43,067 nucleotides of DNA from an uncultured Eubacteriales bacterium. GTDB taxonomy: Bacteria; Bacillota_I; Bacilli_A; RFN20; CAG-288. This document shows, one piece after another, positions 32 to 6,826 of this stretch (positions are counted from its first letter, which is position 1; every line of letters starts with the position of its first letter). Made by a program: the position numbers and the translations under genes. The DNA lies in assembly GCA_900316035.1 (NCBI GenBank), contig ONBI01000008.1, positions 1 through 43,067 of the forward strand. Direction: 5' to 3'. The notes under the pieces were generated by a model. That model worked only from the letters and a program-made list of their open reading frames with translations. It did not search any database and had not been told where the DNA came from.

Positions 32-829
32 ATGATGTACGATTACAAGCTACACTTGGTAATCAGACCCCCACGGGCTTGCCTGTGGGAGCAGTCAGTT
101 TCCTTGGTTCTCGTGCTTCTGGGTCCGGCAAATGTGATCTTTTGTATCCTAGCGACGATCTATTCATTTACGGATACGACCGTGCTTTTCATCCCTTCCT
201 TGCTCTTCTCTTATTTTTCCCTGTCCGGATGTTTTATGACTCCTCTCGATTGTGTCTATTATGCATCGAGAAAAAAGCAGGGATTCGGAACACGCTTCTA
301 TTCGCCGACGCTTTATGAAGCGGAGCTGGATGCTTGCTCCGCCGCTCTTCTCTCCTTCCTTTATTATTGGCTGACACTCGCTTTTTCGAAGAAGGATCAG
401 GCTTTGGATCCTCTGCTCTGCGGCATTCTTCTTCTCTTCCTCGGTCTATCTCTTCTCGCACTAGGCCTTTTCGCATTGCGGAAAAAGAGTTCGGAAGAAA
501 GAATCTCTTGGAAAGAGACCTCCCTAGCTTTCTTCGACCTCCTTTTCCTCCTTGCTATCACCTGGATCTTTCCTCTTTCTCTCATCGCTCTTCTCGGCAC
601 GAAGAACCAAACGGTCTGTCTCGTATTCTTTTGCCTGTCCTCTCTCTTACTCGTGGTCTATCTCCTGCTCTTCAACCAAATCGAGAGCAAGAAGTATCTC
701 GGAAAAGAATCCCTTATGACTCTATCTACCCTCTTTTACCATCTACGCCTCTTCTCCCTCGGAATCAGCTCCCTATTTCTCGCTCTTGGCTTGGCAGTCT
801 TTCTCTCTTCCCTCTTTCTTTCACTTTGA
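32..829 (+). CDS. Unknown polytopic membrane protein
   Basis: A 265-residue protein I do not recognise. It is very rich in Leu, Phe and Ser, with about seven hydrophobic stretches (roughly residues 22-45, 50-70, 102-118, 128-148, 166-190, 195-215 and 240-262) joined by short charged loops such as RKKSSEER near 150-157, so it should be an integral membrane protein. No catalytic motif is visible. An in-frame TAA at 14-16 lies upstream, so the start is inside the window; two adjacent ATGs (32 and 35) are possible and no clear Shine-Dalgarno sequence precedes them, so the exact start is uncertain. An intrinsic terminator follows directly, so the gene is transcribed separately from eno. Confidence 0.6.
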   Translation: MMYDYKLHLVIRPPRACLWEQSVSLVLVLLGPANVIFCILATIYSFTDTTVLFIPSLLFSYFSLSGCFMTPLDCVYYASRKKQGFGTRFYSPTLYEAELDACSAALLSFLYYWLTLAFSKKDQALDPLLCGILLLFLGLSLLALGLFALRKKSSEERISWKETSLAFFDLLFLLAITWIFPLSLIALLGTKNQTVCLVFFCLSSLLLVVYLLLFNQIESKKYLGKESLMTLSTLFYHLRLFSLGISSLFLALGLAVFLSSLFLSL

Positions 830-846
830 AACGGAAAGTGCCCTGA

Positions 847-871
847 CTATGCTGCCGCATAGAGATTTTTT
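847..871 (+). terminator. Intrinsic terminator after the first membrane-protein gene
   Basis: A perfect 6-bp stem (CTATGC / GCATAG) with a TGCC loop is followed by AGA and a run of six T. It lies 17 bases after the stop codon of the upstream gene. Confidence 0.6.
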
Positions 872-5597: not shown

Positions 5598-6056
5598 TCA
5601 GATTTCGGTTTCTTCCTCGCCTTCTTCCTCTTCTTTTTCTTGGTTTCTTCGATAAAGAGTATCTTCAATGGTAGAGACAACTTTCCCGAGGTCGTTCCGG
5701 ATTTCATGTTCCCAGAAATGGAGAACCAGATAACCCATCTCGACCAGTTCCTGATCTTCTTTTCGGTCTCTTTCCTGATTGGTGAGGATCTTCTTTTCCC
5801 AGAATTCCTTATTGGTTTTCAGTTGAGCATCGATCTTCGGAAAATCATAGCCATGGAAAAAGTCACCATCGCAGAAGATAGCGATTTTCGCTTTCTTAAA
5901 AACAATATCCGGATGGCCAGGTAAAGAAGGGTCATTGACCCGATATCGATACCCAGCTTGGGTCAGGGCATGCCGGAGGATCTTTTCAATGGAAGTGTTC
6001 TTTCCCTTGATCCTCGACATGTTATAAGAGACAAGTCTTTTATCCCTTTTAGGCAT
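5598..6056 (-). CDS. vsr: Very short patch repair (Vsr) endonuclease
   Basis: Vsr nicks next to T:G mismatches produced by deamination of 5-methylcytosine. The 152-residue product from the ATG at 6056 matches the family in order: NMSRIKGKNTSIE (about 12-24), SLPGHPDIVF with the catalytic Asp50 (Asp51 of E. coli Vsr), CDGDFFHGYDF (62-72) for the His/aromatic metal and intercalation site, FWEKKI, ERDRKEDQEL, and LHFWEHEI. A longer frame upstream to 6134 lies inside the Nudix gene and is not used. The start overlaps the Nudix stop by 8 bases, indicating coupled translation. No cytosine methyltransferase lies in this window, so the usual partner is absent here. The C-terminus is a Glu-rich tail. 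Confidence 0.85.
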   Translation of the reverse strand: MPKRDKRLVSYNMSRIKGKNTSIEKILRHALTQAGYRYRVNDPSLPGHPDIVFKKAKIAIFCDGDFFHGYDFPKIDAQLKTNKEFWEKKILTNQERDRKEDQELVEMGYLVLHFWEHEIRNDLGKVVSTIEDTLYRRNQEKEEEEGEEETEI

Positions 6057-6459
6057 GCTGCGTAAGGTACGTATCGGCGTCTTTGAGGGTTTCTTTATCG
6101 GTATCAAAGGTGAGCATCTTATAGGCTTTTTCAAAAGGAGCCCAGACTAAAGAAGAAACTTCTTCCGGCTGCGGGATAAGATCTTCACTCAAGGCTTCGG
6201 CAACGAAGAAAGTGACATCTTTCGAGACATCCGAAGAAGGAGAATAAGTGATCGTATGGGAGAAAGACATATCGACATTGACATCGAGATTGGTCTCCTC
6301 TTTGATTTCGCGTAAAGTGCACTGTAAAGGAGTCTCACCCGCCTCGATATGACCTTTTGGAAGAGAGACATGACCTAATCTCATATTCTCGATCAGATAG
6401 AGTCTTTCTTTGCCTTCGTAGCGGTAGACAACAGCGCCGTAGCTTCTCTCTTTTTTCAT
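6049..6459 (-). CDS. Nudix hydrolase
   Basis: A 136-residue Nudix protein that hydrolyses nucleoside diphosphate-linked compounds. The Nudix box is complete: GHIEAGE, then TPLQCTL, then REIKEETNL at about 36-58, with the metal-binding REXXEE. The start RSYGAVVYR and the LPKGHIE entry resemble the diadenosine tetraphosphatase/MutT-like branch, but substrate cannot be read from sequence. The start is supported by AGAGGAG just upstream. It is the first gene of a two-gene operon with vsr; a nucleotide-pool cleaner paired with a mismatch nuclease suggests a shared DNA-fidelity role (inference). Two hairpins with T-runs lie in the leader between the nearest promoter and this gene. Confidence 0.9.
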   Translation of the reverse strand: MKKERSYGAVVYRYEGKERLYLIENMRLGHVSLPKGHIEAGETPLQCTLREIKEETNLDVNVDMSFSHTITYSPSSDVSKDVTFFVAEALSEDLIPQPEEVSSLVWAPFEKAYKMLTFDTDKETLKDADTYLTQHA

Positions 6460-6484: not shown

Positions 6485-6511
6485 AAAAAGACCATAGAAT
6501 CGGTCTCTTTT
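6485..6511 (-). terminator. Second hairpin with T-run in the Nudix leader
   Basis: On the minus strand AAAAGAGACC, an 8-base loop, then GGTCTTTTT forms a second terminator-like hairpin between the first terminator and the Nudix ribosome site. Two tandem hairpins in a leader would strongly limit read-through. Confidence 0.45.
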
Positions 6512-6517
6512 ATAAAC

Positions 6518-6551
6518 AAAAACTCCGCTACGCCACAAGGGCATAACGGAG
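6518..6551 (-). terminator. Intrinsic terminator of the small RNA/leader
   Basis: A 12-bp stem on the minus strand, from CTCCGTTATGCC to GGCGTAGCGGAG with two G.U pairs that exist only in the minus-strand RNA, followed by TTTTTG. The wobble pattern fixes the direction of transcription. Confidence 0.8.
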
Positions 6552-6616
6552 AGAGCAAAAGGAATTTTTGTTGGAATTGATTATCAAGTTCAAGTGCCCT
6601 GGTTCCCCAGATGCAC
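6518..6616 (-). ncRNA. Candidate small RNA or terminated leader (unknown family)
   Basis: A complete transcription unit of about 97-99 nt without a reading frame. It begins just after a consensus promoter, and starts with a stable hairpin: outer stem GTGC/GCAC, inner stem CTGG/CCAG, loop GGAA (6616-6594). An A/U-rich linker follows (6593-6552) containing two UUCC copies that could pair with the GGAA loop. It ends in an intrinsic terminator. It does not match the cores of SRP RNA, 6S, tmRNA, RNase P, T-box, or the purine, preQ1, ykkC, SAM or THF riboswitches that I know. It lies about 60 bases upstream of the Nudix gene on the same strand, so it may be an independent sRNA or a riboswitch-like attenuator for Nudix-vsr. 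Confidence 0.55.
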
Positions 6617-6620
6617 GAGT

Positions 6621-6649
6621 AATATACTCAACGCCCCTTCTTTTGTCAA
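6621..6649 (-). promoter_or_regulatory. Consensus promoter of the small RNA/leader
   Basis: A perfect TTGACA (6649-6644) and TATATT (6626-6621) with exactly 17 bases between them, reading on the minus strand. This is the best sigma-A promoter in the window, and no Shine-Dalgarno site or ORF follows before the terminator. Confidence 0.85.
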
Positions 6650-6826
6650 TAAAAAGAGCACAATAAGTTGATGATCTGACATAATCGGAATAAGCGAAAA
6701 AGGCATAATTTATGAGCGTTTTGATTATTTTTCTATCGAATTATTTGTTTTGTGAACGCTTTTACGTTTATTTTACAAGCATTAGAAAATCGTCTTTCTT
6801 TATTTTAGTAAAGTGAGAGGAAATCG

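Follow-up and report, generated by a model that had tools for sequence, protein, structure and literature searches.

We describe a small non-coding RNA gene in a window of 43,067 nucleotides (contig ONBI01000008.1) from an uncultured bacterium; with its relatives it forms a new sRNA family whose proposed mode of action is already known from other Gram-positive bacteria. Judged from its sequence conservation, the unit is a genuine RNA gene common to gut bacteria of one uncultured genus. The RNA, of ~100 nt, is probably a stand-alone, Hfq-independent blocker of translation initiation that acts in trans, and its family is confined to the genus and a single genome of a sister genus. It is a well-supported and previously unlisted small RNA of uncultured gut Bacilli, for which we know of no RNA biology, and a literature search on sRNAs of the lineage yielded nothing useful.

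Organization of the RNA gene

A preliminary description, made from the letters of the window, had noted a consensus promoter, a 5′ hairpin with a GGAA loop, and a terminator with G.U pairs that fix the strand, all without an open reading frame, and each of these is present (Table 1). The −35 and −10 hexamers match the consensus at 11 of 12 positions, a fit that none of 200 shuffled versions of the upstream sequence equals, and 10 of the 15 family members have a promoter at shuffle p ≤0.02. Motifs resembling cre sites for CcpA lie upstream of the promoter (6753–6768 and ~6716) and also occur in L004; these are look-alikes only and do not rise above shuffles.

The predicted RNA extends from ~6616 to 6518 (~99 nt) and folds with −30.8 kcal/mol (z −3.0), the 5′ hairpin taken by itself with −13.1 kcal/mol (z −3.2); hairpin and terminator are joined by an A/U-rich linker. 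A 5′ hairpin is predicted in most members, its shape being kept while its sequence varies (mean z −1.6, 15 members). ORFs reaching 80 aa are absent from the unit, as are tRNA and tmRNA genes as judged by ARAGORN, and the linkers vary among members by indels of 1–2 bases, which speaks against a conserved peptide. A second terminator-like stem, also part of the preliminary description, is present in the window, but relatives, some of which leave as little as ~25 nt before the Nudix gene, do not show one.

The unit had been said to match no known RNA family, and a search of the window with Rfam 15 indeed gave no match at the gathering threshold. In a permissive scan the sole match near the unit with E<10 is an AU-rich stretch elsewhere (6697–6781, plus strand). 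Searches of 14 related loci returned nothing except a tRNA and a purine riboswitch, both elsewhere in L011; the riboswitch aptamer (RF00167, 50.9 bits; positions 750–851, minus strand) lies near the Nudix/RNA locus of genome G005.

Table 1. Coordinates of the small RNA gene and adjoining features in the window.
Feature	Position	Strand	Comment
sRNA unit	6649–6518	−	promoter at high end, terminator at low end
−35 element TTGACA	6644..6649	−	17-nt spacer to −10
−10 element TATATT	6621..6626	−	17-nt spacer
5′ hairpin, GUGCAUCUGGGGAACCAGGGCAC	6594..6616	−	GUGC AUCUGG GGAA CCAG GGCAC; 23 nt
Conserved unpaired core, AAUUCCAACAAAAAUUCCUUUUGCUCUCUCC	6548..6578	−	antisense to Shine-Dalgarno/start-codon region
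Intrinsic terminator stem-loop	6523..6551	−	12 pairs including 2 G.U; overlaps CUCC end of core
U tract (U5)	6518..6522	−	RNA 3′ end
Second terminator-like stem	6489..6506		ahead of Nudix gene
NUDIX hydrolase gene	6049..6459	−	downstream neighbor, outside RNA unit; PF00293, 61.9 bits

Conservation and distribution of the family

BLAST searches with the unit find matches across the genus in 12 of 15 genomes, with E values down to 6e-20. The matched part is the linker and terminator, not the 5′ hairpin, and consists of AAUAAAUUCCAACAUAAAAAUUCCUUUUGCUCUCUCC and then a stem whose closing pairs are CUCC/GGAG. This core, 31–37 nt in length, recurs in 12 of the 15 genus genomes and in degenerate form in one sister genus. 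With the core as anchor, identity across 13 loci is 92–100% at positions −3 to +16 and 30–60% in the flanks; the neighboring Nudix proteins are 50–70% identical, as compared with the near-invariant core. The core is near-identical despite a G+C content of 26.4–53.2% among the sampled genome parts, a twofold span. Such a spread, 26–53% in sampled stretches of members that include G004 and G010, is unusually wide within one genus.

A covariance model trained on 13 sequences matches the window at 6518–6591 with 82.5 bits and finds the family in 12 of the 15 genus genomes and in the sister-genus genome G018 (53.5 bits). Among the other genomes of the order (279 in all) its only match is borderline (G105, E = 0.006), lacks the core, and is read as chance. 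No copy was found in the incomplete assemblies of genus genomes G006, G011, and G014; core look-alikes in the latter two lie in coding or unstructured DNA and were rejected. Among ~85,000 named species genomes, a scan recovered, apart from a few chance matches, this genus and the member of the sister genus, the matching genomes being MAGs of uncultured Bacilli, Firmicutes, or Erysipelotrichaceae, several of them from ruminants. Exact-pattern matches also occur in a Treponemataceae MAG (L072) and on a viral contig (L088); they have no terminator and are interpreted as chance, as is assumed for a match in Nostoc (L073).

One genome, G002, holds three full copies of the RNA with differing flanks and stems. 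The window's own genome also has a 27-nt stretch that repeats the core in the same sense, AAAAATTCTTTTTGCTCTCTCCGTTAT (L002:999–1025, contig C82; 96%, E 6e-6), located between trigger-factor-like and glycogen-phosphorylase-like genes; it has no clear terminator and is possibly a decayed or longer paralog.

The check proposed in the preliminary description, conservation with covariation among relatives, bears out an RNA gene. In the terminator, 9 of the 12 pairs are changed on both sides and pairing holds in 97% of cells. With 0.68, the covariation score lies above the 0.20 of shuffles, none of 500 of which reaches it, and above the at most 0.15 obtained on sliding. A MAFFT alignment, which is not fitted to the model, gives the same picture with a score of 0.61. 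The RNA is assigned to the minus strand because the terminators carry G.U pairs (19 of 175), which on the opposite strand are A.C mismatches, and 13 of the 15 terminator stems fold better as minus-strand RNA.

A core antisense to translation initiation signals

Reversed, the core reads GGAGAGAGCAAAAGGAAUUUUUAUGUUGGAAUU, with a Shine-Dalgarno (SD) sequence, spacing, and a start codon. Its motifs are two copies of AUUCC, CUCUCC, and CAU, the last of which (anti-AUG) is found in the linker of 14 of the 15 members, the window copy having lost its AU. The linker is unpaired in most predicted folds. It had been suggested that two UUCC copies in the linker can pair with the GGAA loop of the 5′ hairpin, but this pairing is not conserved, as only 3 of 15 members have an unpaired GGAA in the 5′ part, and the UUCC copies are conserved for some other reason.

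We infer a trans-acting, Hfq-independent blocker because of this anti-SD and anti-AUG core, a layout like that of the csRNAs and LhrC, and the failure to find Hfq: a search for PF17209 was negative in all 15 genus genomes, although the assemblies are incomplete and controls were positive in 5 of 14. The core would pair, without Hfq, with the translation initiation regions of several mRNAs and so would block ribosome entry, and the two hairpins would protect the RNA ends and keep the core single-stranded.

The mode proposed for the csRNAs of Streptococcus involves two stem-loops and an unpaired linker with anti-SD and CAU sequences, and csRNAs are defined by a CiaR repeat, NTTAAG-N5-TTTAAG, in the promoter and a nonamer, [A/C]UCCUAAA[A/C], after the first stem-loop (PMC3091779). 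The RNA described here is likewise ~100 nt long, with a 5′ stem-loop, a terminator stem-loop, and an unpaired linker antisense to SD and start codon; it too can occur in multiple copies, and streptococcal genomes lack hfq, which was not found in this genus either. In contrast to the csRNAs, the CiaR box is absent upstream of all 15 members, where there is an ordinary −35/−10 promoter, the [A/C]UCCUAAA nonamer is missing from all 15, and the linker is near-invariant over a genus of a separate uncultured Bacilli lineage, whereas the anti-initiation regions of csRNAs are variable.

LhrC of Listeria monocytogenes is a multicopy RNA with repeated CU-rich, SD-blocking motifs that does not need Hfq (PMC4132741). 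The new RNA shares with it the multiple copies, the repeated CU-rich motifs, and the succession of 5′ stem-loop, single-stranded stretch, and terminator, but the three CUCCC/UCCC sites of LhrC are distributed over loop A, the linker, and the terminator loop, whereas AUUCC, AUUCC, and CUCUCC are here in the linker only; no UCCC is common to the terminator loops, which vary freely, the 5′ loops vary too, and there is no Rfam match. RsaE/RoxS and FsrA of low-GC Gram-positive bacteria also have C-rich unpaired motifs aimed at SD sequences, a feature in common with this RNA, but the motifs differ and these families too give no match at the Rfam gathering threshold. By the sequence hallmarks compared, the RNA is thus not a csRNA, not LhrC, and not in Rfam. 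This suggests that sRNAs of the csRNA/LhrC layout directed against ribosome sites extend beyond streptococci and Listeria, into a lineage in which Hfq was not detected, and the invariance of the core at 26–53% G+C offers a handle on target choice and on any protein that replaces Hfq.

Genome-wide target prediction covered ~876 kb in G004 and 1.2 Mb in G013. The best duplex energies fall within the range of shuffled cores, and stretches of unbroken complementarity in initiation regions are at an ordinary level in G004 and no more than borderline in G013. No near-perfect trans target site was found in the genus. Predicted targets therefore do not clearly exceed shuffled controls; candidate initiation regions include those of atpE and of genes starting with AUGUUGGAA.

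The main rival to the antisense interpretation is that the RNA binds a protein, as a sponge or scaffold, and that the core is a site for an RNA-binding protein instead of an antisense seed. Near-perfect identity over the whole 31–37 nt exceeds what a short seed needs, and target predictions that do not surpass the control point the same way. However, the core is the exact antisense of SD and AUG, a known functional pattern, and no repeated motif is displayed in hairpins, and we regard a protein-binding role as unlikely.

Relationship to the Nudix gene and its neighborhood

The preliminary description had offered two readings, a stand-alone sRNA and a ligand-sensing attenuator acting on the Nudix gene; the first is retained and the second set aside, as the RNA and Nudix occur apart. 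The Nudix gene does lie directly downstream on the same strand in 9 of the 15 loci, with only ~25–30 nt between terminator and start codon in L010, L012, and L013 and hence little space for a separate promoter, as in a 5′ leader in which a ligand or protein bound to the core tunes terminator read-through and thereby sets Nudix expression. But a cis-acting leader is always directly upstream of the gene it regulates, and this RNA is not always so placed. In G003 it is downstream of FeoB without an adjacent Nudix gene, which is on another contig without the RNA, and in G011 Nudix is present and the RNA absent. The two extra G002 copies adjoin unrelated genes and no Nudix, and in G008 and G018 (L004 and L018) a gene on the opposite strand separates the RNA from Nudix. 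Below CUCC/GGAG the terminator stem also varies freely, and there is no conserved alternative antiterminator pairing. On this comparison of loci a Nudix leader is strongly disfavored, and we consider it quite improbable; in the few species with gaps of 25–30 nt, either read-through or a promoter that overlaps the terminator probably serves the Nudix gene, as a side effect.

The stand-alone RNA could be cast more ambitiously as a genus-wide, Hfq-free master regulator, an idealized mimic of anti-SD plus anti-AUG that tunes the translation of many mRNAs together, with Nudix perhaps processing the 5′ end of the RNA or of its targets. The neighboring Nudix hydrolase is possibly an RNA 5′-end pyrophosphohydrolase, and we consider the full proposal quite improbable. 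We find it very hard to credit that the RNA acts in cis, as a type I antitoxin antisense to a small plus-strand ORF whose AUG is complementary to CAU (MLEFI...). In most members the opposite strand does read AAAAGGAAUUUUUAUGUUGGAAUUUAUU, a plausible small-ORF start, but after about five codons the frame diverges or stops, the window copy is without the AUG, the G.U pairs and promoters are on the minus strand only, and conservation continues across variable ORFs and over the upstream region.

The order FeoB–RNA–Nudix recurs in several loci, and synteny is partly conserved. In L005 and L012, where profile matches (TIGR00437) confirm it, the gene for FeoB, a ferrous iron transporter, ends on the same strand 120–180 nt ahead of the core; the partly shown upstream proteins of L009, L010, L013, and L014 look alike, going by only the beginning of their translations. 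From this arrangement a link between the RNA and iron is conceivable. In the window, a gene for a Vsr-type mismatch endonuclease (5598–6134, minus strand; PF03852) overlaps the Nudix gene, and a similar Vsr–Nudix pairing is found in L007, L008, and L014.
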